From Paenibacillus sp. Soil787 (GTDB lineage Bacteria; Bacillota; Bacilli; Paenibacillales; NBRC-103111): a stretch of DNA of 64,000 nucleotides. A program made the position numbers and the translations under genes. Where the stretch lies: assembly GCF_001429545.1 (NCBI RefSeq), contig NZ_LMSP01000013.1, forward strand, positions 76,206 through 140,205, read 5' to 3'. This document shows, piece after piece, positions 20,120-58,483 of this stretch. Under the pieces are notes generated by a model. The model had not been told where the DNA came from and did no database searches. It worked only from the letters and a program-made list of their open reading frames with translations. Position 1 is the first letter of the stretch, and each line of letters opens with the position of its first letter.

Positions 20120-20295
20120 GGAACGTCGATTCGTTATTTTGTGAAATCTGTGATAGAAATCGAAATAAAGGAACGTAAGAGCGCTATTTGATCAAAATGA
20201 ACAATCCGGAGGCACAAAAACGATAAATAACGCATCGTTGTTCCTCTTCCTCATGATTTCAGGTGCTTTTCGTCCAAATAGCGGATCGACGTTCC
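20120..20295. repeat. Four-palindrome intergenic element E2 (AACG-N6-CGTT type)
   Basis: Four units lie at 20122-20135, 20172-20185, 20229-20242 and 20280-20293, each of the form AACG-N6-CGTT or a close variant. The first two are preceded by GG and the last two are followed by CC, so the element is two direct plus two inverted units. Centre spacings are 50, 57 and 51. The sequence is about the reverse complement of 38946-39118. It fills most of the gap 19915-20412. Confidence 0.85.
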
Positions 20296-20412
20296 CTCGG
20301 GCAAACTCTGGTTACCATAACTTAGTAAGTAAAGGGGAGAGGGGTATAACGTCCCAAAATGGTTTTTTTGGGACAGCCCCCTTCTGTATTTGCGACTCGC
20401 TTCCAGCGGATG

Positions 20413-21702
20413 TTAAGTTCGCTTCACGATTTTAAAATTTTCCTCAAGAAGAAGCCAGTTTTGCGGGAATTTAAGACCAAGCTTCCAGTAACTAATACCT
20501 CGTAAGCCAAGCTCTTTTAATAAGCGGAATTTTGCTTGAATAGAGCGTGCGTCCTCGAACCAGACGGTGTGCTCCTTGCCAGCATCATCCCAGTAGTTGA
20601 AGTGCGGGGCTTGCGCCGTGTAATCATACAGGATCTGCGCATTATGCTTACGGGCCAGATCAATAGCCGCTTGCGGAGAGACGGCCTTAGCAAAGGCGCC
20701 GCCGTGGACATAGGGCAGCGTCCAATCGTAGCCGTACAGATTTTGGCCCATCATGACTTTGGAAGCGGGCATCTCGCTTATGGCGTACTCCAGTACTTTG
20801 CGTACGGGACCGATGGGAGAAACGGCCATGGGGGGGCCGCCGCTGTAGCCCCATTCGTACGTCATGATGACGACGAAATCGGCGATTTGGCCATGCGCTT
20901 TATAATCATGCGCAGAGTACCATGCGCCAGCTTGAGCGGCGCTTGTTTTCGGCGCGAGCGCCGTAGACATCAAATAACCTTCTTGATGAATTTGTGCCGC
21001 GGCTTTACGAAGAAAGCGATTGTAGGCATCGCGGTCATCGGGGAACAAGTGCTCAATGTCGAAATGAATATCGCGGAATCCATATTGTTTGGCGGTGCTT
21101 TTAATGTTCTGAAGCAGATGATTCTGAACGGTTTCGTCCGTGAGGATGATATGTCCGAGCTCAGCGCTGAATTGATCATGTTCGAGATTGGTCACAACCA
21201 TCATCAAGGTGACACCATTCTGTGAGGCTATCCCGTGAAGATCGTCCAGCTGCGGGGCTTGGAGGGTGCCGTCCCTTTTAATACGGAAGCTGAATGGAGC
21301 TAAGTACGTAAGATGAGGAGCTGCTTCCTTGGCGGATTGAATGAGGACGGGCGAGACGTCAGTCCCGCGAGGCTCTAAATAGGCATTCACTTCTGCCTGT
21401 TTACGCGGGGTTGGCGGAATATAGAGGCGAAAGCCAACAGGTAAAGATTGATACATGGTTAGTCCATTGACGGAGGCAAGGGTATGCAGGTCAATTCCCA
21501 ACTTTTGGGCAATCAGATAAAGCCCTTCACCGGGCTGTACCCAGTAGTACGAGCCAACAATCGGAATGACCAATGCCTGTCCGATGACCAGGGATTGGCT
21601 GGGGGTCATCTCATTGACTGTTGCGATCGTATCCACCGACACTCCATACATTTGCGAAAGGCGGTATAACGTCTGTCCCTTCTGGATAACGTGGATTTGC
21701 AT
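20413..21702 (-). CDS. yaaH: LysM-GH18 spore-type N-acetylglucosaminidase (YaaH/SleL-like)
   Basis: A 429-residue protein. Two LysM modules (about residues 2-47 and 51-96) bind peptidoglycan; each has the YxLxQ/AxxxGxxxxT pattern. A GH18 chitinase-like TIM barrel covers about 105-429. The catalytic strand DIHFDIEHLFPDD supplies the acidic residue, and MTYEWGYSGGPPMAVSP is typical of the spore-lysin branch. There is no signal peptide, as in Bacillus YaaH and SleL, which are packed into the spore coat or cortex. GGGAGGAA precedes the ATG. Confidence 0.92.
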   Translation of the reverse strand: MQIHVIQKGQTLYRLSQMYGVSVDTIATVNEMTPSQSLVIGQALVIPIVGSYYWVQPGEGLYLIAQKLGIDLHTLASVNGLTMYQSLPVGFRLYIPPTPRKQAEVNAYLEPRGTDVSPVLIQSAKEAAPHLTYLAPFSFRIKRDGTLQAPQLDDLHGIASQNGVTLMMVVTNLEHDQFSAELGHIILTDETVQNHLLQNIKSTAKQYGFRDIHFDIEHLFPDDRDAYNRFLRKAAAQIHQEGYLMSTALAPKTSAAQAGAWYSAHDYKAHGQIADFVVIMTYEWGYSGGPPMAVSPIGPVRKVLEYAISEMPASKVMMGQNLYGYDWTLPYVHGGAFAKAVSPQAAIDLARKHNAQILYDYTAQAPHFNYWDDAGKEHTVWFEDARSIQAKFRLLKELGLRGISYWKLGLKFPQNWLLLEENFKIVKRT

Positions 21703-21799
21703 AGGGGTTCCTCCCTTTCTTCGTAAGCAAAGGCGTGAATTCCGAGCCTACTTGTTTCTTTACCTTATTCGAAGGGAAGGGGATGGGTGTATGTCTACT

Positions 21800-21862
21800 G
21801 GAAAATGACTGCAGGAAAATGACTGTAGGGAAATGACCGCAGGAAAATGAATACAGGGAAAA
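21800..21862. repeat. 14-bp tandem repeat, about 4.5 units
   Basis: Units GGAAAATGACTGCA, GGAAAATGACTGTA, GGGAAATGACCGCA and GGAAAATGAATACA follow one another from 21800 to 21855, then a partial fifth. It lies about 100 bases upstream of the LysM-GH18 start codon, in its likely promoter region. The remainder of the gap 21703-22162 holds the terminator and gene remnant listed next. Confidence 0.9.
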
Positions 21863-21870
21863 AGCAAAGA

Positions 21871-21919
21871 ACTCGATTGACATCCATGCCGCGATGCGGC
21901 AGGTAGAATCGAGTTTTTG
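21871..21919. terminator. Hairpin, probable terminator
   Basis: ACTCGATT (21871-21878) and AATCGAGT (21907-21914) enclose an inner GCCGC-GAT-GCGGC hairpin. T-rich tracts follow on both strands. It would end transcripts from the TetR gene and remnant on the minus strand. Confidence 0.75.
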
Positions 21920-21939
21920 CGATTATAGACTTTGCTGCC

Positions 21940-22106
21940 TCACCTCAGGAGCTGAACGGTCAGCGCAGGATGCGAGATAGGGAAGTGGTGAACAGCCGCT
22001 ATCTCCATCGTGCGCGCGGAGCGAAAGCGCTCCGGCAGTTGGTACATCCGATCCTGGGCTCCCCTATGAACCCTGTACCGCCTGTGATGAAAATATGTGT
22101 CATCAT
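21940..22106 (-). pseudogene. Deleted remnant: dehydrogenase start joined to a hydrolase-like end
   Basis: A good ribosome site (GGAGGGCAGG) leads into MMTHIFITGGTGFIG, an unmistakable nucleotide-binding start of an extended short-chain dehydrogenase or epimerase. Homology stops after about 16 residues and the frame closes soon after. In another frame the sequence continues as QLPERFRSARTMEIAAV and then HHFPISHPALTVQLLR and stop, which looks like the end of an alpha/beta hydrolase around its catalytic His. I infer an internal deletion that fused two genes of a TetR-controlled operon. The second identification is weak. Confidence 0.6.
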
Positions 22107-22128
22107 AATTGCCTGCCCTCCATTTTAT

Positions 22129-22146
22129 TAGTACTAAATAGTACTG
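22129..22146. promoter_or_regulatory. Probable TetR operator before the deleted gene
   Basis: TAGTAC-N6-GTACTG, an inverted repeat inside TTAGTACTAAATAGTACTGA. The same half-site and the same six-base gap occur at 22747-22766, upstream of the TetR start. The site lies between the TetR gene and the remnant it probably controlled. Confidence 0.6.
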
Positions 22147-22162
22147 ATCGTGATTAAAAAAA

Positions 22163-22744
22163 TTACTTTAGCAACAAGGCTAAAGTAGAAAGAGTTTGAC
22201 TGAGCATGGCTGGATCTTGGCTTGCATGCTGCAGGAACAGCCCGCCTTCAATCGTCGAAACGATCAATTGAGCCGTGGCTTTTGTCGGCAGGGTGGCTGA
22301 AAACTCCTTGTTATGAACACCCTCGATGAGCAGGGCTTCCACCGTAAGCATTTGCTCCCTGAAAAAAGCCCTCACTTTTTCCCGAAGTACATCTGCATCC
22401 TGCGGCATCTGTGTGTACAGGGTGAGAAACGGGCATCCGCCTAAAGAAGTCCATTCAAGCCCTGTCAGCACTTGCAGCAGAGCAGTGAAGCGCTCCTGCA
22501 CACTTAATTCTGAACGTGACACAGTCTTCTGAATCATATCGTTATAGGTGTGTATTAGTTGTTCAAGAATTGCGCCCAACAGGTCTTCTTTGCTTTTGAA
22601 ATAATAATAAATGTTCGTTTTGGATACTTTGCTCACGGCAACGATTTCGTCCATGCTGGTTGCTAAGTAGCCTTTTGTCAGGAACAAGTCTGTTGCCACT
22701 TGAATCACAAGATCACGGTTGGTTAATTTCTTTTGCTTTTTCAT
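22163..22744 (-). CDS. TetR-family transcriptional repressor
   Basis: A 193-residue TetR protein. The N-terminal helix-turn-helix covers residues about 10-55 (MDEIVAVSKVSKTNIYYYFKSKE). The C-terminal ligand domain has LGGCPF in the middle, a feature of TetR regulators of stress-type dehydrogenases and reductases. ATG 22744 is chosen, though no strong ribosome site is seen; GTG 22753 is possible. The probable operator at 22747-22766 overlaps the start, fitting autorepression. The downstream target gene is now a remnant, so the protein may have lost its local function. Confidence 0.88.
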   Translation of the reverse strand: MKKQKKLTNRDLVIQVATDLFLTKGYLATSMDEIVAVSKVSKTNIYYYFKSKEDLLGAILEQLIHTYNDMIQKTVSRSELSVQERFTALLQVLTGLEWTSLGGCPFLTLYTQMPQDADVLREKVRAFFREQMLTVEALLIEGVHNKEFSATLPTKATAQLIVSTIEGGLFLQHASQDPAMLSQTLSTLALLLK

Positions 22745-22746
22745 AA

Positions 22747-22766
22747 ATAGCACTATACGGTACTAT
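22747..22766. promoter_or_regulatory. Probable TetR autoregulatory operator
   Basis: ATAGCAC-N6-GTACTAT, an imperfect inverted repeat directly at the TetR translation start. It shares half-site and gap length with the site at 22129-22146. Confidence 0.55.
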
Positions 22767-22853
22767 AAATCAATTGTCAAATCCGAAATGTATATCTTAC
22801 ATTCGAAAGAAGATAATAGCATTATTGGAAATTGACTCGTAAGGATGCTGCAC

Positions 22854-23627
22854 ATGAGAACCAAGCCACGCCGTCAAATTGCGTTCGTCACTGTATTAGG
22901 CATAACCCAATTGCATTTGCGCAATCCCTTCATTATTGTATGGTGGGCCGCTGCCTTTCCGGGCTTTGGTCATTTATTGCTATCCAAATATATTCGCGGC
23001 TTTATCCTTATTGGATGGGAAATGCTCATTAATTCCCAGATGCATTTGAACGAAGCGATCGTATACACCTTCACAGGTCAATTCGAGCGGGCCAATGAGG
23101 TGCTGAATATTAGGTGGATGTCATTGTATGTGCCTGTTTATTTATTTGCAATCTACGACAGCTATCGAACCACCGTGGATATGAATCATCAATTTATTTT
23201 AGCTAAAAGGGAGAATGCCCCGATTGATTGTTTTAAAATGTCCGGTATGGAAATTAACTATCTAGATAAGCGCTCGCCATGGCTGGCGATGGTCTGGTCC
23301 TTGTTAATGCCGGGAATGGGACAGCTTTATTCCCATCGGATTATCAATGCTTTTTTTATACTTGTGACCTGGATTTCACTTTCCTATATGTCTCATTTAC
23401 TCGAAGGAATTCACTATTTACTCATGTGGGACTTAGCACAGTCGGCTCGTGTAGTGAAAATGCATTGGCTTATATTTTTACCCTCTTTTTATGGTTTTTC
23501 CGTCTACGATGCTTATGTAAATACAGTAGAATATAACAAACTGTTTGATCACGAGCAGGTTTGCATGCTCCAAGAGAACTATCAACATCGCCAATTTCCA
23601 TTTCCTAAATCTCCGCTTCGAAAATGA
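22854..23627 (+). CDS. Conserved membrane protein of unknown function
   Basis: A 257-residue protein that I do not recognise as a named family. It has about five hydrophobic segments. Two related blocks, AAAFPGFGHLLLSKYIRGFIL near residue 40 and LLMPGMGQLYSHRIINAFFIL near residue 155, share a P-G-x-G-x-L pattern, as in small TM2-like proteins that appear duplicated. Between them are polar loops with YDSYRTTVD and YDAYVNTVEY, again alike, so the protein is probably an internal duplication. TAAGG precedes ATG 22854. The next gene follows after ten bases. Confidence 0.75.
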   Translation: MRTKPRRQIAFVTVLGITQLHLRNPFIIVWWAAAFPGFGHLLLSKYIRGFILIGWEMLINSQMHLNEAIVYTFTGQFERANEVLNIRWMSLYVPVYLFAIYDSYRTTVDMNHQFILAKRENAPIDCFKMSGMEINYLDKRSPWLAMVWSLLMPGMGQLYSHRIINAFFILVTWISLSYMSHLLEGIHYLLMWDLAQSARVVKMHWLIFLPSFYGFSVYDAYVNTVEYNKLFDHEQVCMLQENYQHRQFPFPKSPLRK

Positions 23628-23637
23628 GGGTTACACC

Positions 23638-24099
23638 ATGCATGTAATAGCATCATTTGAACACTCGATCTATTTGGAGCTGGCGATTACTGCTCTTGAA
23701 GAGGCGGGTATTCCCAAGGAACATATCTATGCTGTTTCTTTGCAGGCGAGATCCAACAAACCGAAGATGTTCGACACGATCCATCACTCTGATGGCGTTA
23801 GTCTATTTGATGCTGGGATAGCCCTGGCAACAGCGCTCACGGTAGTTGGCTCTACCTATGGCTTTATTTTAAAAGGAGGGGCCATTCTTTGGGGCGTTAT
23901 CGGCGCAGCTGTGGGCTTCACCATCGGGGTCTTCATTGATATTGCCTATAAAAAAAAGAAGAAAGCGAAAACGAATCTCCCATCCCGAAACAAAATGACA
24001 GAAGTTGTTGTGCTCGTCGCTTGCGATAAAGAGGAAACCAAGCAAATTCAGGATGTTTTCTGGGAGCATCATGCCTTTGGAGTAGCTATTTGTGAATGA
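23638..24099 (+). CDS. Small membrane protein with glycine-zipper segment
   Basis: A 153-residue protein. The N-terminal 60 residues look like a soluble alpha/beta fold (HVIASFEHSIYLELAITALEE). A Gly-rich hydrophobic double segment follows at about 65-103, then a Lys cluster, then a soluble C-terminal region (VVVLVACDKEETKQIQDVF). The order resembles stress-type proteins with a central glycine-zipper insertion. GAGGG precedes the ATG at 23638, and the gene probably forms an operon with the one before it. No function is assigned. Confidence 0.7.
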   Translation: MHVIASFEHSIYLELAITALEEAGIPKEHIYAVSLQARSNKPKMFDTIHHSDGVSLFDAGIALATALTVVGSTYGFILKGGAILWGVIGAAVGFTIGVFIDIAYKKKKKAKTNLPSRNKMTEVVVLVACDKEETKQIQDVFWEHHAFGVAICE

Positions 24100-24359
24100 A
24101 TTTCTGCTGTGCAGAAACCAGGATAGGATAGACCCGTGCCGAGTTAATGCTTGAGCGGGTTATTTTTGATGTTTTGGGGTTAAGGGGGAGGCGGAAACTT
24201 CCCCCTGTTTAGCATGCAATTTGCTGAGTTGAGTGAGATTGTGGCGCAATGCGTAATCATTCAGTAAGTAGCTATGCGTTCTTGGTGCTTGTTGTTTGTT
24301 TTCTTGGCTTGTTTTGTTTGTCTTGTCTGTCTGGGTGAAAGGGGGAATTAAGCAGCCAA

Positions 24360-24540
24360 GTAGTACAACGTACAACAATTTCCTTGATTTCTTCTGTATG
24401 AGCTAAAGATGTTGTATGTCGTACAACAATTCAGTCTTTTTATAGGCTATAGAGCCATTTTCGGCTGGGATTGTTGCATTTTTTGCAACATTTACATGGA
24501 TAACGTGGATTAGCTTGCAAAATGTTGCACAACGTACAAC
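24360..24540. repeat. Four-palindrome intergenic element E3 (GTTGYA-N5-TRCAAC type)
   Basis: Four 17-base inverted repeats lie at 24360-24376, 24411-24427, 24473-24489 and 24524-24540. All have six-base arms close to GTTGYA and TRCAAC around a five-base loop; only the first has an imperfect left arm. Centre spacings are 51, 62 and 51. In the first two, the right arm is followed by AATT. Reading the last two on the other strand gives AATC and ATTT, so units 3 and 4 look inverted. The rest of the gap 24100-24760 shows only a short hairpin (24105-24119) and the palindrome at 24654. Confidence 0.85.
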
Positions 24541-24653
24541 TTTACACGTACCAAGCAAACGAATGATTAAGCATATACGTCTTGAGCGGTGTAATGCGTT
24601 TAGCTCCGCATAATAACCATGTAAGCCGCGCATTAGTATGCCGAAGCAATTGG

Positions 24654-24673
24654 GTACTATTGGTAAATAGTAC
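24654..24673. promoter_or_regulatory. GTACTAT-N6-ATAGTAC palindrome before the YiaAB gene
   Basis: A perfect seven-base inverted repeat with a six-base gap, 24 bases upstream of a TATACT box (24697-24702). Its half-sites are the same words as in the TetR operators at 22129 and 22747 but in everted order. It is a candidate regulatory site for the gene at 24761. Confidence 0.5.
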
Positions 24674-24760
24674 TATCTGGGATGGAAAATTTCTCCTATA
24701 CTAAGTAACAAGAGCAAGACATTAAAGCGTTGCGGCAGCAACCACAGGGGGCTTACGGAG

Positions 24761-25222
24761 ATGATGGATCAACGGAGACGGAATACGGCGGCATTTACTT
24801 TTATGGCATGGACATCCTTCATTGGGGCATTCCTGGCGATGTTCATCGGGATTTATACGTTGGAAGAATCACTGAGTGTTAAAGGTTATTTCGCAGTGTG
24901 CGCGTTATTCCTCACGATGTCGGCTTTTGTCTTACAGAAGGTCATTCGTGACCATTTGGAGGATGGCTACGGTTCACGCAAACGCAATACATCGGCTTTC
25001 ACTTTCTTGGCATGGAGCTCGTTCGCTCTAGCGCTTCTGGGTATGTTTATTGGGATTATTAACTTGGAGCAGCTGCTTTCTGTCAAAGGTTATTACGCTG
25101 TTACGGCTTTGTTCCTGACGATGTCTTCCTTTGTTCTTCAGAAAACGGTACGTGACAACAACGATGATGAGCTCCTGCAGCCGGTTGAAAATAAATTAGA
25201 AAATAAATTCGAAGAGCTGTAG
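24761..25222 (+). CDS. yiaA: YiaAB-type inner membrane protein, duplicated domain
   Basis: A 153-residue protein made of two nearly identical halves, each about 65 residues with two membrane helices. The blocks NTAAFTFMAWTSF and NTSAFTFLAWSSF start the repeats, and FLTMSAFVLQKVIRD and FLTMSSFVLQKTVRD end them. This is the YiaA/YiaB two-helix domain in tandem. The biochemical function of the family is not known. An acidic tail follows. The ribosome site is GGGGGC or GGAG close to tandem ATG codons at 24761 and 24764. Confidence 0.88.
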   Translation: MMDQRRRNTAAFTFMAWTSFIGAFLAMFIGIYTLEESLSVKGYFAVCALFLTMSAFVLQKVIRDHLEDGYGSRKRNTSAFTFLAWSSFALALLGMFIGIINLEQLLSVKGYYAVTALFLTMSSFVLQKTVRDNNDDELLQPVENKLENKFEEL

Positions 25223-25240
25223 TCACAGCACTTTGCCAAG

Positions 25241-25276
25241 AAGCTTAGTTCATGATCGATGAACTAAGCTTTTTTT
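25241..25276 (+). terminator. Rho-independent terminator
   Basis: AAGCTTAGTTCAT and ATGAACTAAGCTT form a 13-base perfect stem around GATCG, followed by a T-run, 18 bases after the YiaAB gene. Confidence 0.95.
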
Positions 25277-25335
25277 CAGTAGATAGACGCGTTGCGGCAC
25301 CACTGATGAATGAAAATTTTTAATTTTCAGGGCAG

Positions 25336-25419
25336 AAAGTATAAGTTTTATTACACTTCGCGTCATCAGTCTTGATAAACGCGCTCGTCCCAGAAGGACG
25401 ACGAAGGCGTTTATCCTTG
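25336..25419 (+). repeat. Dispersed hairpin repeat, copy 3
   Basis: Nearly identical to 8342-8423 over its whole length: AAAGTATAAGTTTTAT, then ACACTTCGCGTCATCAG, then the GCTCGTCC-CAGAA-GGACGAC hairpin, ending ATCCTTG. The outer arms here are AAACGC and GGCGTTT, against AAACTC and GAGTCGTTT in copy 1, so the outer pairing is kept by compensatory change. Again it follows a terminator. Confidence 0.88.
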
Positions 25420-25499
25420 TCTGCAACGGCCCCATTAACATACAGCTGTTGAGTAAGGAAATGGGTGCGAAATCTAACTCCAGATTTATCTTTCCCGGC

Positions 25500-25682
25500 T
25501 AAAGGACTGGAATGACGTTAATCTCCGAAAAAGAGTGAATTTGAACATCTAATGGACTCGATAGCCCTTAATCTCCTTCAAATGATGAAAATAAGATAGA
25601 TTGAAGCCGAATAACGGCGCTGAAGTCCGTAAGCTCGGAATCATCGCACCAAATAGGCAGTTAGCGGCATATACGCCCGTTA
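25500..25682. repeat. Four-palindrome intergenic element E4 (TAACGG-N9-CCGTTA type)
   Basis: Four 21-base units lie at 25500-25520, 25550-25570, 25612-25632 and 25662-25682, with arms close to TAACGG and CCGTTA around nine bases. Arms are imperfect in the first two. Centre spacings are 50, 62 and 50. The first two units are both followed by ATCTCC. The element lies in the gap 25223-26137, between the copy-3 hairpin repeat and element E5. Confidence 0.8.
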
Positions 25683-25814
25683 AACGTCTATTTCCGGTTG
25701 GTTTCATTAGCTGTGTGCTAGAATTGGTCCGCCGGGGAATTATGCAGGCCGCTGACTGTGGATAAGAGGGGTAGAAGGAGCTGGGAACGAATGAGTGAAC
25801 ATGAATGGTGAACC

Positions 25815-25997
25815 ATTGGATTTTATCCACTGATTTTCCTATTCAGGCCTAACAATGATAGCAAACATTGGATTATTTCCAATCGAATGGCCTCAAAACG
25901 TTAATATTCGTGGAAAATGTTGGTTTCCATTGGATTTTCTCCAATCAAAGTCGGATGTCCAAAGCCCGTGATGATATTTCATTGGATTTTCTCCAAT
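25815..25997. repeat. Four-palindrome intergenic element E5 (ATTGGA-N5-TCCAAT type)
   Basis: Four 17-base units lie at 25815-25831, 25867-25883, 25929-25945 and 25981-25997. Arms are ATTGGA and TCCAAT around a T-rich five-base loop; only the first right arm deviates (TCCACT). Centre spacings are 52, 62 and 52. It ends about 140 bases before the start of the sensor kinase gene, so its last units may lie in that promoter region. Confidence 0.88.
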
Positions 25998-26137
25998 GTC
26001 ATTCAAATATTACATGGCTTGTGAGATCCAGTTTGTTCATTTTTGCCAATATGACTAAAGGGATAGCAGGAACACGAACGATGTTGCTATAATGTCGTCA
26101 AGGGATTGGTCAATACGAAGATATAGGGGTAAATCAG

Positions 26138-27940
26138 ATGAGATCATGGAGTCAACTTATACTAAGCATTAACCGCAGCTTCAGGGTAAAACTGATTCTC
26201 AGCCTATCCGTTATCATTTTGCTGGCCTTCGGCGTAACGGGCTATTTAACGTATCGCTATAATTTGTCACTATTTGAGGAAGAAATCAGTAAGCAGTTTT
26301 CTAGTACGAATGAAGAGGCACTGGCGAAGATGGACCTGAAAGTTCAGGAGGTTGTACGGGTCTCACAAACGGTCGTATTTAATCCTGAAATCGAAAAGGT
26401 CATCACGCGGATCAATTCGAGCGAAGATTCCGATCCATTTAAATTGTATTACAATAAAAAGCAAATCGAAGATCAGATTTTCCAGATCAAATCGGATGCG
26501 CCGTACATTACTGGCATGTATTTATATGATCTCAAAGGGAATCCTTCTTATTTCAGCTATACCACCTCGGCCATTAATATCCCGAGTGAGAGCGTATTCA
26601 GCACAATTCAATCCAAAATCAACGACACCTACGGGGACCTCGTATGGATTAGCATGCCGTTGCCATCCTCTATTGAACCAAGCGGGTTTAGAAATACAAT
26701 CATTGTGGCCCGGTGGATGAAAAATAGTGCTTTGAACACGTATGGCGTGCTCGTGATGGCTTTTGACGAGTCGTTCTTCTCGGGTTCTCTCAAGGAACTG
26801 ACGAAGAATGGAGAGGGCGAAGTCTATTTGTTCAACAAGAATAATGAGCTGTTATTTAGCAATTCGCCGGAGAGCTCGGTAGATAAACGGGAACGGCTGA
26901 AAAATTTGAATCAAACTCAGCTATTGGATAACCATCTGTTCGTTCAAGCACAGTCGAAAGTGACTTCCTTCAAGCTGGTCAGCGGAACTTCGCTTACGGC
27001 CATTCAAAGCAAGAATCGAGATTTATTTCAGAAAATCGTAATCTCTGGCCTGATCAGCGTTCTTCTCACCAGTGTGTTGATTATACTTTCCACGGGCAAT
27101 CTGCTGCGGCCGCTCAAGGATTTGCTGCAGGGTCTGCGCAAGGTAAGATCTGGCGATTTCGATACGCGCATCGAGATTAGAACCAAAGATGAGCTTGCTT
27201 ATATCGGAGAGAGCTTCAACGCAATGGCCGAACAAGTCGGAAGGCTGATTAAGGAAGTGTATTTGACGCAATTGAGTGAGAAGGAAGCGGAGCTTAAAGC
27301 GCTGCAAGCCCAACTGAATCCACATTTTCTGCATAATATGTTTAACGAAATTTATTGGAAGCTTTATCTGCAAGATGAGACCGAAACGGCGGCCTTGATC
27401 GCGGCTATATCGGAGATGCTCAAGTATTCATTGATGCCTGTGCGTACGCTGACCACCGTGAGGGAAGAATTTCAGCAGATTCGTAACTATTTGAAGGTGC
27501 AGAAGGAGCTCTTTGAAACGGACTTGGAGACGATTATTCAAGCGGATGATGACGTTCTGAACGGCCAGGTAATGCGGTCTCTTCTCCAACCATTGGTAGA
27601 AAATGTGTTTATGCATGCCTTTCGCAACAAAGTGTCGCATAAAGTGCTGTTGATTAAAGCGAGCAGCCGGGATGGCTTCCTGGAGATTGAAGTAACGGAT
27701 AATGGCTGCGGTATGGATGAAGTGGCCATTTCGCAAATACTGGGCTTCGAGGGCTCATCTTTGCCGCAGCGTTCAGATGGGCGAGAAAGTCTCGGGGTTC
27801 GCAGTGTTGTAAGGAGAATCGAGCTGGTGTATGGTACGCCTTATCGTTTGGAAATCAATAGCGTGATTGAAAGCGGCACCACTATGCGCTTAGTTTTGCC
27901 TTTTGTAAATGATGTCGGGACAGGAGGTTCAGCAGCATGA
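26138..27940 (+). CDS. YesM-type sensor histidine kinase
   Basis: A 600-residue membrane kinase. TM1 lies near residues 18-40, an extracellular sensor region near 41-290, and TM2 near 295-312. A HAMP domain follows to about 365. The His-kinase domain has QLNPHFLHNMFNEIYW with phospho-acceptor His396. The ATPase domain shows PLVENVFMHAF (N box), DNGCGMD (G1) and a GRESLGVRSV segment. It pairs with the response regulator that overlaps its end by four bases. In Paenibacillus such pairs usually control adjacent sugar-uptake genes; here the iol operon follows. Confidence 0.93.
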   Translation: MRSWSQLILSINRSFRVKLILSLSVIILLAFGVTGYLTYRYNLSLFEEEISKQFSSTNEEALAKMDLKVQEVVRVSQTVVFNPEIEKVITRINSSEDSDPFKLYYNKKQIEDQIFQIKSDAPYITGMYLYDLKGNPSYFSYTTSAINIPSESVFSTIQSKINDTYGDLVWISMPLPSSIEPSGFRNTIIVARWMKNSALNTYGVLVMAFDESFFSGSLKELTKNGEGEVYLFNKNNELLFSNSPESSVDKRERLKNLNQTQLLDNHLFVQAQSKVTSFKLVSGTSLTAIQSKNRDLFQKIVISGLISVLLTSVLIILSTGNLLRPLKDLLQGLRKVRSGDFDTRIEIRTKDELAYIGESFNAMAEQVGRLIKEVYLTQLSEKEAELKALQAQLNPHFLHNMFNEIYWKLYLQDETETAALIAAISEMLKYSLMPVRTLTTVREEFQQIRNYLKVQKELFETDLETIIQADDDVLNGQVMRSLLQPLVENVFMHAFRNKVSHKVLLIKASSRDGFLEIEVTDNGCGMDEVAISQILGFEGSSLPQRSDGRESLGVRSVVRRIELVYGTPYRLEINSVIESGTTMRLVLPFVNDVGTGGSAA

Positions 27941-29493: not shown

Positions 29494-29495
29494 GG

Positions 29496-29630
29496 TTAAG
29501 AGCTTAATGATGGTACTTTGCCACTCCCATTTCTTCGTCCATGAGTTTTTTTTGTAAAAGGCATTGCGGTCGAAAACAATATGTTGTACTATCGGATTAA
29601 GCGCTTAACCTTGTGAGATTAAGCGCTTAA
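29496..29630 (+). promoter_or_regulatory. iol operon promoter with AAGCGCTT operators
   Basis: TTGCGG (29564-29569) and TACTAT (29587-29592) are spaced by 17 bases. Directly downstream lie two perfect 12-base palindromes, TTAAGCGCTTAA, at 29597-29608 and 29619-29630, 22 bases apart, inside an almost identical 18-base repeat. A variant, TTAAGAGCTTAA, lies upstream at 29496-29507. The AAGCGCTT core is that of LacI-family operators, and a LacI regulator closes this operon. Two sites inside the transcribed leader plus one upstream would allow repression with looping. Confidence 0.85.
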
Positions 29631-29655
29631 CCTTTATCGTGAAAGGAAGATGGTC

Positions 29656-31521: not shown

Positions 31522-31545
31522 CGATAAAGGGGAGAGAACATATCT

Positions 31546-32454: not shown

Positions 32455-32461
32455 CGATCCG

Positions 32462-38845: not shown

Positions 38846-38945
38846 CTTATATGAAGCTCATTAGGCTGCTGTCCCAAAAGTCATTTTGGGATGATATGCC
38901 ATCTACCTTTATTTTACTATCCAATGGTAACCAGAATTTGCTGAG

Positions 38946-39118
38946 GGAACGTCGATGCGCTAATTGGGAAAAACGCCCGAATTCATGAGGAAGAGGAACG
39001 ACGATGCGTTATTTCGTTGTTTTTGCCTCCAGATCGCTCATTTTGATCAAATAGCGCACGCACGTTCCTTTTATTCGATTTTTAGTGCAGATTTCCCAAA
39101 ATAACGAATCGACGTTCC
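38946..39118. repeat. Four-palindrome intergenic element E6 (AACG-N6-CGTT type)
   Basis: Units lie at 38948-38961, 38997-39010, 39053-39066 and 39103-39116. Each has AACG or AGCG and CGTT or CGCT arms around six bases. The first two are led by GG and the last two followed by CC. Centre spacings are 49, 56 and 50. It is about the reverse complement of E2 and, in the same orientation, close to E7. It lies in the gap 38846-39591. Confidence 0.88.
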
Positions 39119-39153
39119 GCGAGCCTTAGGGATAGCAACTTTTCGTATGATCA

Positions 39154-45468: not shown

Positions 45469-45489
45469 AGAGACTTTCCCTGAGGAAAG

Positions 45490-45535: not shown

Positions 45536-45580
45536 CATTAGAAGGAAATGATGACAACAAAGTTCTAAGGAGGAACAGAC

Positions 45581-46528: not shown

Positions 46529-46540
46529 AAGGTTATCAGC

Positions 46541-48277: not shown

Positions 48278-48291
48278 AAAGGAAGGCCGAT

Positions 48292-51293: not shown

Positions 51294-51324
51294 GAAAAGT
51301 AGGCTTGTGATTACAGCATTGTGG

Positions 51325-51353
51325 GTCTCTGATCGCTTCGATCAGAGATCTTT
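51325..51353 (+). terminator. Rho-independent terminator of the carbohydrate cluster
   Basis: GTCTCTGATCG and CGATCAGAGAT pair around CTT and are followed by CTTTT, about 30 bases after the MgtC-family gene. Confidence 0.85.
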
Positions 51354-51524
51354 TCCATTTTTACGTGGGCTAAGATGAGGTTCCTGTCCCCAATTGCTCA
51401 TTCTCCTCGACTTTAGCGTGTTTTATATCGTTAAGGAGGCAAATTTCCGCGTTCCCTATACGTTAGCGATGGAAAACATCGTTACAGAGAAGCTGCGTTA
51501 TCTGCACAAGCCGTCGGACAAACC

Positions 51525-51568
51525 AAAAAGCCCGCTAAGCCAAAAAAATGGCTTAAACGGGCTTTTTT
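51525..51568. terminator. Bidirectional rho-independent terminator
   Basis: AAAAAGCCCG and CGGGCTTTTTT, with inner TAAGCC and GGCTTA arms, surround an A-rich loop. It lies six bases beyond the xylA stop and serves xylA on the minus strand. Confidence 0.92.
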
Positions 51569-51574
51569 CACGAA

Positions 51575-52894: not shown

Positions 52895-52956
52895 GAATTC
52901 AGCCTCCATAAATTAAGGAATAAATGCTTATGCAGTCATCATAGCACCAAATGAAT

Positions 52957-52981
52957 AGTTTGTAAATTCATTAAACAAACT
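52957..52981. promoter_or_regulatory. XylR-type operator
   Basis: AGTTTGT-N11-ACAAACT, a perfect seven-base inverted repeat in the xylA-xylR intergenic region. It agrees with the AGTTTGTTT...AACAAACT operators of Bacillus XylR. Confidence 0.85.
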
Positions 52982-53067
52982 TAGTTAATGCATGAAAATG
53001 TCTTTCATGTTAAAATCAGTTCATTAGAAAAGAGCGACAAAGCCATTAGAGCAGTGTGGGGGCAAAC

Positions 53068-54246
53068 ATGAGGCAAACAGGCGATTTGAATCTTGTGAAA
53101 AAAATAAATAAATCCATCGTACTACACCATATACGCACGAATTCTCCAATTTCCCGCGCACGGATTGCAGAAATTACAGGGCTGACCAAAGCGACGGTGT
53201 CAAGTCTTGTGAACGAATTGATCGAGAGCAGCGTCGTCGAAGAGATTGGTGTTGGAGAATCAAGCGGCGGGCGCAAGCCGATGATGCTGCTTTTTAATGG
53301 GACGGCTGGTTATGCCATCGGGGTAGACCTTGGGGTTACTGATATTCTCGCGGTGCTGACGGATTTAAGCGGTAAGATCATCCGCGAAGTAAGAGTGCAG
53401 CATGACAATGCTTCTGTCGAAAAGGTCGTCGAGCTGTTGACAACGACCATCCGCGGGATGATCGAAAGCGCGCCGGAGAGCGTCTACGGTATTATAGGAA
53501 TCGGCATCGGAGTGCCGGGTATTTGTGACGAGAGCGGCAACCTGCTGTTCGCGCCGAATCTGGGCTGGGAGAACGTGCCTTTGCAGCAGCAAATCGAGGA
53601 GACGTTCAACATTCCGGTTGTTATTGATAACGAAGCGAACGCAGGAGCTGTGGGGGAGAAACAATTCGGAGCCGGTAAAGACACGGCGAATCTGGTGTAT
53701 GTGTCGATCGGCATCGGGATCGGTGCTGGGATCATCATTAAGGGCGAGCTGTACCGCGGAGCGACCGGCTTCTCTGGTGAGATCGGGCACATCTCGATCC
53801 AGCACGACGGGCCCAAGTGCAGCTGCGGCAGCTTGGGCTGTTGGGAGTTGTATGCGTCGGAGCACGCGCTCCTCACGCAGGCGCGCCGCGAGTTAAACGA
53901 TGACGCTGTGGATCTGGAGGCTTTGCTTAGCAAGGCCGAAGCTGGAGATCCGACGGTGATTGCGCTTTTTGAGCGCCTTGGTTATTATCTCGGTATAGGC
54001 GTAGTTAATATTATCAACGGATATAATCCTGAATATATTATTCTCGGCGGCCGTTTAGCAAGTGCCGAGAGATGGCTGATGAAGCCGCTGCTGGCTTTGC
54101 TTGAGAAGCGTTCACTGCCGCATCCGCGCAAGCAGCTGAAAGTAGCGTTCAGCGAGCTGAGCGATCGGTCGACAGTGCTCGGGGCGGCATCTTTTGCGGT
54201 GGCCACATTTTTCGTGGAGACAACAGTTTCGGTTGATCGGAATTAA
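53068..54246 (+). CDS. xylR: ROK-family xylose repressor
   Basis: A 392-residue ROK regulator. Residues 5-65 are a winged helix-turn-helix (SRARIAEITGLTKATVSSLVNELI). The ROK domain follows with the sugar-kinase-like motif GIGIGAGIIIKGELYRGATGF and the zinc site CSCGSLGCWE. Binding of xylose would release it from the operator upstream. Start 53068 follows GGGGG; the in-frame GTG at 53056 is less likely. It is divergent from xylA. Confidence 0.92.
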   Translation: MRQTGDLNLVKKINKSIVLHHIRTNSPISRARIAEITGLTKATVSSLVNELIESSVVEEIGVGESSGGRKPMMLLFNGTAGYAIGVDLGVTDILAVLTDLSGKIIREVRVQHDNASVEKVVELLTTTIRGMIESAPESVYGIIGIGIGVPGICDESGNLLFAPNLGWENVPLQQQIEETFNIPVVIDNEANAGAVGEKQFGAGKDTANLVYVSIGIGIGAGIIIKGELYRGATGFSGEIGHISIQHDGPKCSCGSLGCWELYASEHALLTQARRELNDDAVDLEALLSKAEAGDPTVIALFERLGYYLGIGVVNIINGYNPEYIILGGRLASAERWLMKPLLALLEKRSLPHPRKQLKVAFSELSDRSTVLGAASFAVATFFVETTVSVDRN

Positions 54247-54271
54247 GCTAGAGGGGATTCCTTCCATATGG

Positions 54272-54300
54272 TTGACCGAAGGATGGCACTTTTGTACAAT
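54272..54300 (+). promoter_or_regulatory. Vegetative promoter
   Basis: TTGACC and TACAAT are separated by 17 bases, 45 bases upstream of the membrane protein start at 54345. Confidence 0.8.
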
Positions 54301-54344
54301 GAGAAAAGTGCCAAAAATTCGAGATCAAAGGACGGGAACCAACG

Positions 54345-54839
54345 ATGTTTCTACGTTCACTAATGATGTGCTGCTACCTCATGGTAGCTTACTGGGCTTC
54401 TTACCATTTCCCATCAATGAAGATGGTTTTTTATCCGACGCTTGGGGCATTCTGCTTTCTTTTTATGCACCGGGTGGACCAAATTAAGGACATTGGACGC
54501 ATCACGATGGGTGCTATCATAGCCGTGACATTAGGCAGCACCATGTATGCGATAAGCCACGGCGCCATATCATTTTTCATAACAGCTATACTTACCATCT
54601 CTCTTATTCAGTGGTTCAAATGGAACGCGGCCCCGATTCTATCCGTTTCGTTCATTCCCTATTTTGCTCATTCCGTCTCATTCTGGGCGCTGCCTGCAGC
54701 TGTCTTCGTTTCTCTCCTCGGGCTGGTGGGATCCGTTTGGCTCATTGGCAAGGTGGAGCAGTTGAATTGGTTTTCCAGAATGTCAGTGGCACTTACGCCG
54801 CTTCGCACGAAGCTGGAGCCGTTAAAAAAAGAGATGTAG
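54345..54839 (+). CDS. Small integral membrane protein
   Basis: A 164-residue protein with about five hydrophobic segments and a basic C-terminal tail (TPLRTKLEPLKKE). I cannot place it in a named family with confidence; the compact helices separated by short loops recall HPP or FUSC-like membrane proteins. The start is ATG 54345 with a GGACGGG site. A promoter lies upstream and a terminator follows. Confidence 0.75.
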   Translation: MFLRSLMMCCYLMVAYWASYHFPSMKMVFYPTLGAFCFLFMHRVDQIKDIGRITMGAIIAVTLGSTMYAISHGAISFFITAILTISLIQWFKWNAAPILSVSFIPYFAHSVSFWALPAAVFVSLLGLVGSVWLIGKVEQLNWFSRMSVALTPLRTKLEPLKKEM

Positions 54840-54869
54840 CTAGCTGGTTAGCAGCTAGCAATCATAAAC

Positions 54870-54907
54870 AAAAAGCGATCAGCAGGTGAATGCTGTCGCT
54901 TTTTTTT
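54870..54907 (+). terminator. Rho-independent terminator
   Basis: AAAAGCGA and TCGCTTTT with inner CAGCA/TGCTG arms, followed by a T-run of eight. Confidence 0.92.
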
Positions 54908-54926
54908 CATAAGAAGGAGAATATAA

Positions 54927-55427
54927 ATGAAAATGCACAAAGGAGAAATCCTATTCCGCCAAGGAGACACGGGTCCACTGTACCAGCTCCAAACCGGCCT
55001 CTTAAAAATTGTTCGTGCTCATGAGGACGGAAATACGACACTTGTGAATATCATTGTGCCAGGCGAGACAATTCCCCATCATTCGCTCATTACTCCAAGC
55101 CCTTACTACGGTACTGCAATAGCGCTTGTCACTTGTGACATAGAAGTGCTTCCTGCTTCGCAGTGGTACGAGGAGTTGGAGCGCAGTCCGGAGCAGTTCC
55201 GTACGATTGCGCGGCAATTACAGGATAAACTGCGCATGATGCAGCAGCGAATCGACCAATTGACGGAAGTGACTCCCGCTGTCAAGCTGATGAAGCTCGA
55301 AAGCTGGTTCCAACATTATTTGGGAACGTCGAAGCTGACAGACCTGCTAACACAGGAGGAAATCGGTCAGTTCATTGGGCTTCGCCGGGAGACCGTGAAT
55401 CGTCTACTGAGGGATAATCCCCATTAA
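54927..55427 (+). CDS. Short Crp/Fnr-family regulator
   Basis: A 166-residue protein, against about 220-230 for the family. The cyclic-nucleotide-like beta roll starts late, at KGEILFRQGDTGPLYQLQTG, and the dimer helix is present. The helix-turn-helix (LTQEEIGQFIGLRRETVNRLLRD) ends the protein directly after the recognition helix, without the usual final wing. A good ribosome site (AGAAGGAG) supports the start, so this looks like a trimmed regulator and not an assembly error. Whether it still binds DNA is open. Confidence 0.8.
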   Translation: MKMHKGEILFRQGDTGPLYQLQTGLLKIVRAHEDGNTTLVNIIVPGETIPHHSLITPSPYYGTAIALVTCDIEVLPASQWYEELERSPEQFRTIARQLQDKLRMMQQRIDQLTEVTPAVKLMKLESWFQHYLGTSKLTDLLTQEEIGQFIGLRRETVNRLLRDNPH

Positions 55428-55591
55428 CTCGAATGCAGGTCTTTTTGCTTCACTAACGAAAACTATAGCCCAATAATCATCAGGTGAGACTCCTCAAAAA
55501 GAGATTTTGCAAATAATCCAACATAGATAAAGCTTTTTGAGTAATCCGAATAAATTATTGTGGGTCTATCCGATTACTGGGCTAATCTTAG

Positions 55592-55828
55592 AGCTTTCCA
55601 TTTATAAATAAAACCTCACCAACGATTCCCTTATCTCTGGAAAAACAATTAGATAACATTGAAGTAACGGAGAATAAGCTTCAAATCAATGTTTACAATA
55701 CGCTTGTCAAACAGTTGGACGAAGCTTCAGATGCGTTGGTACAGATTGATGCACAAATAAAACTGGTCGAATTAATGAATAATATTGAAGATGAATTTAC
55801 AAAGTTGAGTACGATTACCGAACATTAG
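55592..55828 (+). pseudogene. C-terminal coding remnant of unknown protein
   Basis: An open frame of 78 codons, without start codon or ribosome site, reads as a helical, charged segment (LEKQLDNIEVTENKLQIN, then LVKQLDEASDALVQIDAQ and so on) and stops at 55828. It looks like the end of a larger gene. Further decayed frames lie between 55940 and 56090, for example a run ending in YHPSVAKTAIKGLTKR. The rest of the gap 55428-56190 shows no intact gene. Confidence 0.45.
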
Positions 55829-56191
55829 TAAGAAAAAAGCTGCCAATAGAGAGACTAACTTGTATGGATAGGAGCAGGCGCCGCGGCGACCTGCTCCTAA
55901 TTTGTGAATGAAATTTTGAAAGGGATTACAATCTGTAAAAGGCGGCACGCGTTGCTAGGGCTTATATTCCATTGGGTGGAGAGCGGTTTTAAGCATTCTT
56001 CGGCTTACATGCAGGAGAAGCTGGTGAAATCATCAACTATCATCCGAGTGTTGCGAAGACCGCGATCAAAGGCCTGACGAAGAGGTAACGAATATGACTG
56101 GTTGAAAAAGAGGCTGCTCAGCCGCGAGTAAACAGGCAGTTCGTCTGACGGAACACTCTTCACCATGACACTACCTCAGCTGTAACCTGTT

Positions 56192-56224
56192 ATTCATTTT
56201 CCGTTCATATTCGCTTCCTATACT
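56192..56224 (+). promoter_or_regulatory. hrtBA promoter with HssR-like direct repeat
   Basis: ATTCATTTT and GTTCATATT (56192-56200 and 56203-56211) form a direct repeat with a two-base gap. This matches in word and spacing the HssR box of Staphylococcus, GTTCATATT-N2-GTTCATATT. A TATACT -10 box follows at 56219-56224, so the repeat covers the -35 position, as expected for an OmpR-type activator. Confidence 0.6.
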
Positions 56225-56251
56225 TTAGTCATTACGAAGGAGGGAAGCACA

Positions 56252-57379
56252 ATGTATCTAGCTATTCGAGAAATGAGGTTTGCTAAGGCACGGTATTCGT
56301 TAATCGCTACAATTATGGTGCTTGTTGCATTTCTTGTTCTGTTTGTCACCGGGCTTGCACAGGGGCTTGCGTATGACAATGCCGCTTCTGTTAAGAATAT
56401 GGCTGCAACACATTTTGTCTTAGGACAGGACGCTAATCACCGTTTCACCCGATCCCAGGTCGATCAGAATCAGTTTGAAAAGGCTGGCTTACTAGTAGGG
56501 AAAGAGAATGCAGAGCCACTAGGTCTGAAAATGACAACGGTTGTTCCATCAGGAGATACTGGAAAGATTGATGTTGCTTTGCTCGCCGTTAATCTCGGTA
56601 GCTGGCTGGCGCCAACAGTAACAGAAGGTTCACCCATCTCGGATCAGACAAAAGGACATGTTCTTGTTGATCAAAAGCTGTCTAACTCTGGAGTCAAAAT
56701 TGGCTCAATCATTGTAGATCAAGCTTCGGGAACAAAATGGACTGTAAGCGGTTTTGTAAAAAACGAGTCATTCAGTCACGCTCCGGCTGTCTTTCTAAAA
56801 AAGCAGGACTGGCTTAATCTTCAAGCGCAGACACTTACACGTCAAGGAAATGAATCAGCAGCAGACAGTAAAGTTTACAATGCAGTCGCCATTAAAGCCT
56901 CGAAAGAAAAAGTTAAGGAGCTTCAGTCCGCGCTGCCCAATACGGAAGTGATAACGAAGTCTGAAGCAGTATCTGGGATTCCTGGTTACAAAGAAGAGCA
57001 AGGCTCGCTTATGATGATGATTGTATTCTTATTTGTAATCTCTGCCTTTGTCCTGGCTGTATTCTTTTATGTCATCACGATTCAGAAAACCAGTCAATTT
57101 GGTATATTGAAAGCCATCGGTACACGTACGGCCTATCTAGCTAGAAGTGTCACGCTGCAGGTGTTGGTCTTATCGGTTGGCAGTTTGGTTCTTAGCGTCC
57201 TGTTGGTTCAATTGTTTGAGGCCGTATTGCCAAGTTCCATGCCATTTCAATTAGGCTTTTCCACCTTGGCGTTTACTTGCATGTCTTTTATAACAATGTC
57301 TTTGGCCGGTTCGCTATTTTCGGTGTGGAAAGTCGCCAAAATTGACGCTTTGGATGCGATTGGGAGGACAGCAGCATGA
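56252..57379 (+). CDS. hrtB: HrtB-like ABC exporter permease
   Basis: A 375-residue FtsX/MacB-type permease. TM1 lies near residues 17-40, followed by a large extracellular domain (about 45-250), then three helices in the FtsX domain from 255 to the end, with QFGILKAIGTRTAYLARS as the coupling segment. The N-terminus, including VLFVTGLAQGLAYDN, closely resembles HrtB, the haem-export permease. GAAGGAGGGAAG precedes the ATG. It overlaps the ATPase gene by four bases. The HssR-like box upstream supports a haem-stress role; no hssRS genes are in the window. Confidence 0.82.
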   Translation: MYLAIREMRFAKARYSLIATIMVLVAFLVLFVTGLAQGLAYDNAASVKNMAATHFVLGQDANHRFTRSQVDQNQFEKAGLLVGKENAEPLGLKMTTVVPSGDTGKIDVALLAVNLGSWLAPTVTEGSPISDQTKGHVLVDQKLSNSGVKIGSIIVDQASGTKWTVSGFVKNESFSHAPAVFLKKQDWLNLQAQTLTRQGNESAADSKVYNAVAIKASKEKVKELQSALPNTEVITKSEAVSGIPGYKEEQGSLMMMIVFLFVISAFVLAVFFYVITIQKTSQFGILKAIGTRTAYLARSVTLQVLVLSVGSLVLSVLLVQLFEAVLPSSMPFQLGFSTLAFTCMSFITMSLAGSLFSVWKVAKIDALDAIGRTAA

Positions 57380-58104
57380 AAAACAGACTCGTATTACAGG
57401 AGATTACACGGACTTTTGAGGATGGCGGTACGGAAAGAACGATTTTGGATAAGCTAAACCTTGAGGTGGCCGAAGGTGAACTAGTCGCGGTAATGGGCCC
57501 TTCAGGCTCGGGCAAAAGTACATTTCTGTCCATAGCAGGAGCACTTCTTGAACCTACGAGTGGGCATGTTCTACTCGATGGAGAATCCATTATCGGTAAA
57601 GACAAACAAGCACTATCTGATCTACGACTTCAAAAAATCGGATTTATTTTTCAAAGCGCCAACTTGATTCCGTACTTGAAAGTTGAAGAACAACTGGTTT
57701 TGGTAACCAAGCTTGCAGGGATGGAAAAGGCGATGGCAACCAAACGAGCAAAAGAGTTACTCGATAAAATGGGATTATCTCATCGTCGAACCGCATATCC
57801 TGAGAAACTCTCAGGGGGGGAGCGTCAACGGGTAGCTATCGCAAGAGCCTTAATGAATGATCCAGCTGTCCTATTCGCAGATGAACCAACAGCAAGCTTA
57901 GATGCCTCACGAGGGCACGATATAGTGAGCATGATCGCGAAGCAAGTAAAGGATCAGCGAAAGAGCGCGGTTATGGTTACGCATGATGAACGAGTACTGC
58001 CGCTTTGTGATCGAGTGCTTTTTCTTGAGAATGGAAAACTAATCGAAAAACAAAAAAGAAGCGCAAAAATCGCTTCTTGGCAAGAGAATTTTGTAACTAA
58101 ATGA
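57376..58104 (+). CDS. hrtA: HrtA-like ABC exporter ATPase
   Basis: A 242-residue ABC ATPase of the MacB/LolD type. Walker A is GPSGSGKST near residue 40, the Q loop is FQSANLIPYL, the signature is LSGGERQRVA and Walker B is VLFADEPTAS, followed by the switch His in TGMVTHDE-like VMVTHDE. It is slightly longer than typical HrtA owing to a C-terminal tail. It powers the permease with which it overlaps. Confidence 0.9.
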   Translation: MKNRLVLQEITRTFEDGGTERTILDKLNLEVAEGELVAVMGPSGSGKSTFLSIAGALLEPTSGHVLLDGESIIGKDKQALSDLRLQKIGFIFQSANLIPYLKVEEQLVLVTKLAGMEKAMATKRAKELLDKMGLSHRRTAYPEKLSGGERQRVAIARALMNDPAVLFADEPTASLDASRGHDIVSMIAKQVKDQRKSAVMVTHDERVLPLCDRVLFLENGKLIEKQKRSAKIASWQENFVTK

Positions 58105-58119
58105 TTAATTAGCGTACTT

Positions 58120-58160
58120 AACCAGCAGACCCTTGAGTTTGCTGGTTTATTTTCTTTTCA
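58120..58160 (+). terminator. Rho-independent terminator
   Basis: AACCAGCA and TGCTGGTT pair around a 12-base loop and are followed by TATTTTCTTTT, just after hrtA. Confidence 0.85.
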
Positions 58161-58308
58161 TACGATATAGCTTTTGTTGACGGCCTATTGAACCGTATTG
58201 AAGGAATGTTTCTGGTGCTTATGGTCCACAGTAATTCGATTCCCGAACGGTCGGGTAGGTAACATCGAGCAGCAGCTGTACGAGCTAAGGTAGCCAGAAT
58301 TTGCTGAG

Positions 58309-58483
58309 GGAACTACGATGCTCTAATTTGTCGAAAAACGCCGAAATCAAGGGGAAGAGGAACGACGATACGTTATTTCGCAGTTTTTTGCCTTCGAATC
58401 GCTCCTTTGATCAATTAGCGCACTCACGTTCCTTTCAACTCGATTTCTAGCGCAGATTTCTCAATATAAGTGATCGACGTTCC
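58309..58483. repeat. Four-palindrome intergenic element E7 (AACG-N6-CGTT type)
   Basis: Units lie at 58311-58324, 58361-58374, 58417-58430 and 58469-58481 with centre spacings of about 50, 56 and 51. It is similar to E6 along its whole length and in the same orientation, including the flanking AGCCAGAATTTGCTGAGGG-like lead. It lies in the gap 58105-58777. The remainder of that gap has no intact gene; a short frame ending near 58293 may be another decayed fragment. Confidence 0.85.

Follow-up and report, generated by a model that had tools for sequence, protein, structure and literature searches.

Dispersed intergenic elements of Paenibacillus sp. Soil787 hold four palindromic units whose spacing is kept while their word changes

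A 64,000-nucleotide stretch of the genome of Paenibacillus sp. Soil787 (NCBI RefSeq assembly GCF_001429545.1, contig NZ_LMSP01000013.1, positions 76,206 to 140,205 of the forward strand), hereafter the window, carries six intergenic elements, each holding four short inverted repeats, or units, at nearly fixed distances (Table 1). The source strain is close to P. alginolyticus, P. phytorum and strain Root444D2, with 95-96% identity in the protein of the gene at 26138. A first-pass annotation of the letters alone had placed the six elements and listed their centre spacings, and recomputation from the sequence returned the same values: 50-57-51 base pairs (bp) for the element at 20120, 51-62-51 for 24360, 50-62-50 for 25500, 52-62-52 for 25815 and 49-56-50 for 38946, with about 50-56-51 read by eye for 58309, a diverged type A copy that has homology matches to type A and falls under our scan threshold. 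That annotation had also held that all four units of an element share one arm, which is strictly so in type D and largely so in type B; the agreement is looser in A and C. Inversion of units 3 and 4 relative to units 1 and 2 can be read from the alignments in types A and B and also in C, while the words of type D are too symmetric for a direction to show. The left part of full type A elements (window 20016-20110) contains a terminator-like hairpin (AAATGAGGTGGCAAGG..CCTTCTCATTTTT).

Table 1. Coordinates of the four-unit elements and their units in the window (position 1 is the first letter of the 64,000-nucleotide stretch)
Feature	Position	Strand	Remark
Type A copy 1, whole region shared with a second copy: outer part, left part resembling a terminator, and the four sites	20016..20378		C13:96221-96583; 81% to C1:204081-204443
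Type A copy 1 unit 1 (GGAACG word)	20120..20139	+	
Type A copy 1 unit 2	20170..20189	+	
Type A copy 1 unit 3, inverted	20225..20244	-	
Type A copy 1 unit 4, inverted	20276..20295	-	
Type B unit 1 (GTTGYA-N5-TRCAAC word, one letter changed)	24360..24376	+	
Type B unit 2	24411..24427	+	
Type B unit 3, inverted	24473..24489	-	
Type B unit 4, inverted	24524..24540	-	
Segment with types C and D, TTCA at both edges	25276..26031		absent at this locus from three close relatives
Type C first unit (TAACGG-type word)	25500..25520		
Type C second unit	25550..25570		
Type C third unit	25612..25632		
Type C fourth unit	25662..25682		
Type D unit 1 (ATTGGA-N5-TCCAAT word)	25815..25831		
Type D unit 2	25867..25883		
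Type D unit 3	25929..25945		
Type D unit 4	25981..25997		
Type A copy 2, extent of match to another copy	38870..39120		
Type A copy 2 unit 1	38946..38965	+	
Type A copy 2 unit 2	38995..39014	+	
Type A copy 2 unit 3, inverted	39049..39068	-	
Type A copy 2 unit 4, inverted	39099..39118	-	
Type A copy 3 unit 1, diverged	58309..58328	+	by eye; homology matches
Type A copy 3 unit 2	58359..58378	+	by eye
Type A copy 3 unit 3, inverted	58413..58432	-	by eye
Type A copy 3 unit 4, inverted	58464..58483	-	by eye

The geometry was searched for with the word left free, by scoring the eight half-sites of each candidate (maximum score 48, threshold 38). Within the window at least 38 was reached at 4 places and at least 37 at 6, one of which (25260) is none of the elements in Table 1, compared with means of 0.0 and 0.05 in 20 shuffles. 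Across a 1.12 Mb contig of the same genome (C1), 24 loci scored at least 38 at spacings of 51-52/61-63/51-52 bp, whereas spacings shifted by +5, -5, +10, -10 and +20 gave 0, 0, 0, 1 and 2 loci, the three control loci all lying within one repeat tract near C1:586,800. With the order of the gaps swapped (62/51/62) as a control, 14 loci were returned; since 12 of these are no more than 200 bp away from a locus with the true spacing, this control mostly picks up three sites out of four in the same elements. Among the 24 top loci, three (82157, 531181 and 548238) look by eye like unrelated period repeats and are to be discounted; GC-rich period-51 tandem repeats with palindromic words, at C1:82079 and C1:548258, mimic the spacing but look unlike members of the class.

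For units with a 5-bp centre on C1, and with both outer gaps kept fixed, the centre gap was 62 bp in 30 loci, 61 in 6 and 63 in 4, while any other value occurred in 0-2 loci; the two counted at 52 come from D elements where three sites, spaced 52 and 52, were called. Varying the first gap alone, which is a weak test, gave 20 loci at 51, 15 at 52 and 2-13 at other gaps. The Soil787 sequence examined holds 42 distinct B elements with at least three units; in type B, 67 of 118 gaps measured 51-52 bp and 31 measured 62 bp. Same-word palindrome pairs on C1 peak, relative to one shuffle, at distances of 48-51 bp (93 against 16), 52-55 (69 against 12), 60-63 (46 against 11), 112-115 (77 against 15) and 152-155 (88 against 6), and chaining such pairs yielded the new words GCTGCA/GATGCA (type E), ACGATG (type F) and CCTGCA (type G).

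The elements of the window are dispersed through the 7.66 Mb genome, as evidenced by 38 and 42 match rows for two type A queries, 45 for B, 44 for C alone and 50 for C plus D as one query, 18 of these in the D part (query included); with 40 first-look candidates scored per search and with fragments and the query among them, these rows are not exact copy numbers. Alignments of the copies show the units to be conserved and the spacers less so, and a diverged D copy (L064) retains its four words with different spacers. Three B copies (L028, L030 and L032) have common repeated flanks that translate into a short repeated peptide. A further dispersed repeat (..AAACGCGCTCGTCCCAGAAGGACGACG..CGTTTATCCTTG) lies at window 25334-25423 and is present in relatives too, for example in L369 and at L166:6297-6386.

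Free-word scans of other genomes returned 8 loci in 400 kb of Paenibacillus V4I3 (G003), two of which (261381 and 261718) look by eye like unrelated period repeats, one D-like locus in 400 kb of G024, one doubtful locus in 200 kb of G019, and six loci in 200 kb of G033, a genome from another family of the order, where three of the six are tandem copies and the words comprise a new one, TAGGGA-N5-TCCCTA, and NNTGYA variants. Spacing controls at +5, -5 and +10 gave 0 loci at the same score in the scanned stretches of these four genomes. At L364:10125-10857 in G033, three tandem four-site copies with a period of 276 bp resemble a young satellite array. Of 16 elements with exact 51-62-51 spacing from Soil787, G003 and G033, 14 align without gaps, and these supplied a sequence-only profile (R1) that covers the NNTGYA word group (NNTGYA-N5-TRCANN) only. 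At E 0.001 the profile matched 85 of 198 genomes of the order, in 23 of 43 genera and six families, although 6 of the 85 matches are marginal, with a best E no better than that of out-of-order matches, one family (f6) depends on one such match, and the three source genomes match partly by construction. Among 398 genomes of the phylum, 9 matched: three members of the order at full length and six outsiders partially, at E 7e-5 or weaker, while four other genomes of the order in this set had no match; full-length matches of the NNTGYA group were confined to the order of Paenibacillus. Pieces of type A were found in relatives within the genus. Type B was not found in phages or plasmids, nor type A in plasmids, and a phage or plasmid origin was rejected on this basis. 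Two species have four-site elements in the gap between a gene that reads as cdd and one that reads as era (L385:1330-2200, with two tandem copies, and L393). No description of the class was found in the open-access literature on Paenibacillus palindromic repeats, miniature inverted-repeat transposable elements (MITEs) or dispersed repeats.

We compared the outer dinucleotides, which element selection leaves unconstrained, in 63 elements that all belong to the NNTGYA group. Agreement was 59.5% within palindromes, 59.9% between palindromes of one element and 44.9% between elements; since the first two values are nearly equal, the word belongs to the whole element and to all eight of its half-sites. 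Paired letters at arm position 5 were independent (TA 115, CA 53, TG 52, CG 30; odds ratio 1.25, p 0.48), and the wobble pair T.G was no commoner than C.A; in both comparisons related copies are treated as independent. The suggestion in the first-pass annotation that a class exists in which geometry is kept while the word changes, the arms changing together, is supported. Its alternative suggestion, that structure is under selection, for instance as four hairpins able to pair with one another, is not supported: the arms do change together from element to element, but arm position 5 shows no pairing constraint in the 63 elements of the NNTGYA group. A word held in common by eight half-sites would be expected of a dimeric protein that binds duplex DNA; hairpins do not require it.

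Copies appear and disappear between close relatives. The segment with types C and D is missing at the same place in all three relatives compared (L159, L160 and L166), and the type A copy at C1:204081-204443 is missing between matching flanks in 7 of 7 relatives inspected; at C1:204081 the A element stands where the relatives have their own terminator-like hairpin. For the A copy at 38946, none of six relatives has a counterpart behind the corresponding left-hand gene: both flanks are adjacent in two (V4I3 and P. alginolyticus DSM 5050, G004), the right flank lies elsewhere in the others, and in three of the six (L365, L368 and L370) B elements, whole or partial, are found there instead. The type E element at C1:796080 is whole in one of six relatives, partial in two, reduced to a deletion derivative in one and absent in two. 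Counterparts of the copies at 20120 and 24360 are present in Root444D2, where an element of about 300 bp with inverted ends GAGTCAATTT..AAATTGACTC and a run of N inside (L159:8397-8698) is inserted in B unit 3, equivalent to window 24473.

We favor, at roughly even chances, an explanation in which these are non-autonomous, dispersed, gene-less elements that carry a phased array of four dimer sites for a protein acting in trans, with families differing in the word. Each element would offer four palindromic sites, composed of eight half-sites, to a dimeric protein that binds DNA sequence-specifically; the sites lie about 5, 6 and 5 helical turns apart, with units 1-2 facing units 3-4 wherever a direction is readable. 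Because the steps of 51.5 and 62 bp differ by one turn and lie just under 5 and 6 turns (at 10.5 bp per turn), the four sites should face one way, and four dimers could sit on one face of the helix in a two-fold symmetric arrangement that wraps or loops about 180 bp. Families in one genome may be read by related proteins with another word preference and the same architecture, and the elements, aided in trans, would have spread to new intergenic places. What the mobilizing machinery recognizes probably includes the array, much as REP-associated tyrosine transposases (RAYTs) recognize repetitive extragenic palindromic (REP) sequences, but the array would be read as duplex and not as a hairpin. 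Of the two proposals that the first-pass annotation had offered, a family of elements with co-evolving binders fits best, and hairpins selected for their structure do not. The copies, their geometry and their turnover between relatives are shown, as are, for the NNTGYA group, the half-site pattern and the occurrence across the order. The protein is purely inferred, because neither an element-specific gene nor a gene-bearing version of the element was found in the sequence searched, and so are the shape of the complex and its part in the spread.

Several observations weigh against this explanation. No element-specific gene, and no recurring neighbor that could be told apart from common families, was seen within 1.5-2.8 kb of the elements; protein clusters were judged by eye, at 98 loci of Soil787, some of which overlap, at 23 places on C1 and at 23 loci from other genera. 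A split copy with a gene between its halves was not found in 2.3 Mb scanned for units with a 5-bp centre, and an autonomous element of that form was accordingly rejected for this range. Conservation among B copies drops steeply within 2-5 bases of the outer units (1 and 4) to a faint similarity, but two copies compared directly can still match over a further 20-40 bp. Target duplication was not found in the NNTGYA group beyond the palindrome dinucleotide (35 of 63 against 12.2 expected). The type A spacing of 50/56-57/50 fits the helical rule only with a dyad 2-3 bp off the palindrome centre; a dyad shifted by 2-3 bp to the GGAAC side would restore about 50/62/50. Hairpins are favored by one result: in the 14-element alignment a four-hairpin structure pairs 91.1% of cells compared with 88.1% for shuffled pairings (0 of 500 shuffles), an excess that palindromic half-sites would also give. 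Lastly, sites are better kept in place than spacers. Three Soil787 elements compared with the same-place copy in a relative have 18 of 206 site positions changed and 35 of 230 spacer positions (p 0.041; site windows hand-drawn, two units only for B), and in two other species an element beside a gene reading by translation as hemB agrees at 50 of 66 site and 69 of 115 spacer positions (p 0.035), both samples being small and the species pairs having been found through the site profile or picked by site score. This pattern hints at a host role rather than purely selfish spread.

Such a role underlies the reading that the elements are host docking arrays for chromosome organization or regulation, occupied at four phased sites by conserved cell proteins, for example to insulate convergent genes, and retained because the host profits from them, with spread incidental; we judge this fairly unlikely. 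The slower change of sites than of spacers after insertion agrees with it, as does the presence of the NNTGYA group in six families of the order, one of them marginally. So does gene placement on C1, where, of 30 elements (types A, B, D, E, F and G), 24 are intergenic by a crude open reading frame call, 14 between convergent, 9 between tandem and 1 between divergent genes, compared with 55 convergent, 110 tandem and 48 divergent among 213 long gaps (convergent excess p 0.0017). However, a gene-end preference was not obvious in the 23 loci of other genera, likewise by crude calls; 113 of 198 genomes have no match, though the filters lose some weak ones; and a conserved cellular function sits poorly with copies that appear and vanish between close relatives and with several word families per genome. 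As to what the postulated protein does, turnover and patchiness favor a mobilizer, and conservation of sites in place weakly favors a host function.

If the elements instead were ordinary MITEs, internal-deletion relics of a DDE transposon in which all that counts is that sites 1-2 and 3-4 are the paired transposase sites of the two ends, their general features would be accounted for, since they are short, gene-less, dispersed and polymorphic for insertion. Type C has inverted ends CTACGAC..GACC, which in 5 of the 12 copies displayed are flanked on either side by A/T tracts, several of these being terminator T-tracts, and many type A copies have the pair GGCTGTCCCAAAA/TTTTGGGACAGCC at their ends. 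The outer hairpins of type A were rejected as its defining part, given that few such ends occur on C1 (5 and 5, one mismatch allowed) and that some copies keep the sites without them; in the search for a parent transposon with the same ends, type C yielded only pieces in the Soil787 genome. Families differ in the distance from outer site to end, which is at most about 40 bp in B and about 54 and 80 in C. The sites are palindromes, a 62-bp centre recurs with unrelated words and in another bacterial family, and the search for split halves, made for units with a 5-bp centre, was empty, all of which makes the MITE reading unlikely in our view. That the elements work as RNA or single-stranded DNA, by means of four hairpins or of pairing among them, has a very low probability. 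Type A can fold into one long hairpin, and in the 14-element alignment set against 500 shuffles, paired cells (0), cells changed on both sides (2), covariation score (3) and pairs changed on both sides (22) speak for it, but further pair types show no excess (313 of 500). Single-strand folding is inconsistent across types (z -4.15 for A, -2.45 for B, -0.68 for C and -0.86 for D), and the window has no Rfam match at gathering score and five matches below it, none convincing. The genome also has no match to the Y1 transposase domain PF01797. With the paired arm letters independent and T.G matching C.A in the NNTGYA group, the hairpin reading was rejected.

The bacterial MITEs bcr1, RUP, NEMIS and ERIC are each recognized by one sequence and terminal repeats, and we know of no bacterial MITE that is defined by geometry across unrelated words. 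The proteins TnsB of Tn7, MuA of Mu and IstA of IS21 each have two ordered sites per transposon end, in inverted orientation, the sites being non-palindromic and enclosing genes; two ordered, inverted sites per half are a likeness to the present elements, whose centre, in contrast, is fixed at 62 bp. In the portion of PMC3733652 consulted, bcr1, RUP, NEMIS and ERIC are 70-300 bp long, non-coding, often beside genes and mobile, as here. REP sequences, bacterial interspersed mosaic elements (BIMEs) and REP doublets forming hairpins (REPINs), together with their RAYTs, offer a closer likeness, in dispersed intergenic palindromes, several word groups per genome and an inverted arrangement, and REPIN doublets share preferred inter-site distances (PMC2817692 and PMC3116915, both in part). 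The elements described here differ in having four sites, no hairpin covariation, no flanked gene and no match in the genome to PF01797, the Y1 family of RAYT and IS200-type transposases (0 at E 0.001; the control matched in 5 of 14 named genomes). By eye the alignments have no common GTAG tag, and CGTC in type A lies inside the word and not in an unpaired tail; membership of the REP/RAYT system was rejected on the lack of PF01797, and compensatory changes (NNTGYA group) and an end tag are lacking too. CGTC REPs lack a dedicated transposase and are hosted by Proteobacteria, Chlorobi, Bacteroidetes, Spirochaetes and Thermotogae, the text not mentioning Paenibacillus, and CGTC and GTAG REPs occur as monomers, dimers or clusters and not as four sites at 52/62/52 (PMC3733652, in part).

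Among known kinds, REPINs come closest to the way these elements work, both being dispersed palindromes that fall into word groups, but the defining REPIN features that were tested for are lacking, and there is a real chance that they are a kind of their own among dispersed bacterial repeats. We put forward tentatively, at somewhat less than even chances, that this undescribed kind is defined by geometry: a portable four-dimer array with 5-6-5-turn phasing and an exchangeable word, whose reader across Paenibacillales would be a protein family that diversifies fast. Sequence is the usual basis for sorting dispersed bacterial repeats; the class described here is recognized by spacing alone. The joint change of the word across eight half-sites, at constant spacing, offers a handle on the co-evolution of DNA-binding specificity and genomic sites, and predicts a protein assembly with a known footprint that should be biochemically retrievable. 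If a host protein reads the array, it would represent an unrecognized layer of chromosome organization in an order of common soil bacteria; if its reader is a mobilizer, the array would belong to a second system of the REPIN kind that works by another mechanism.

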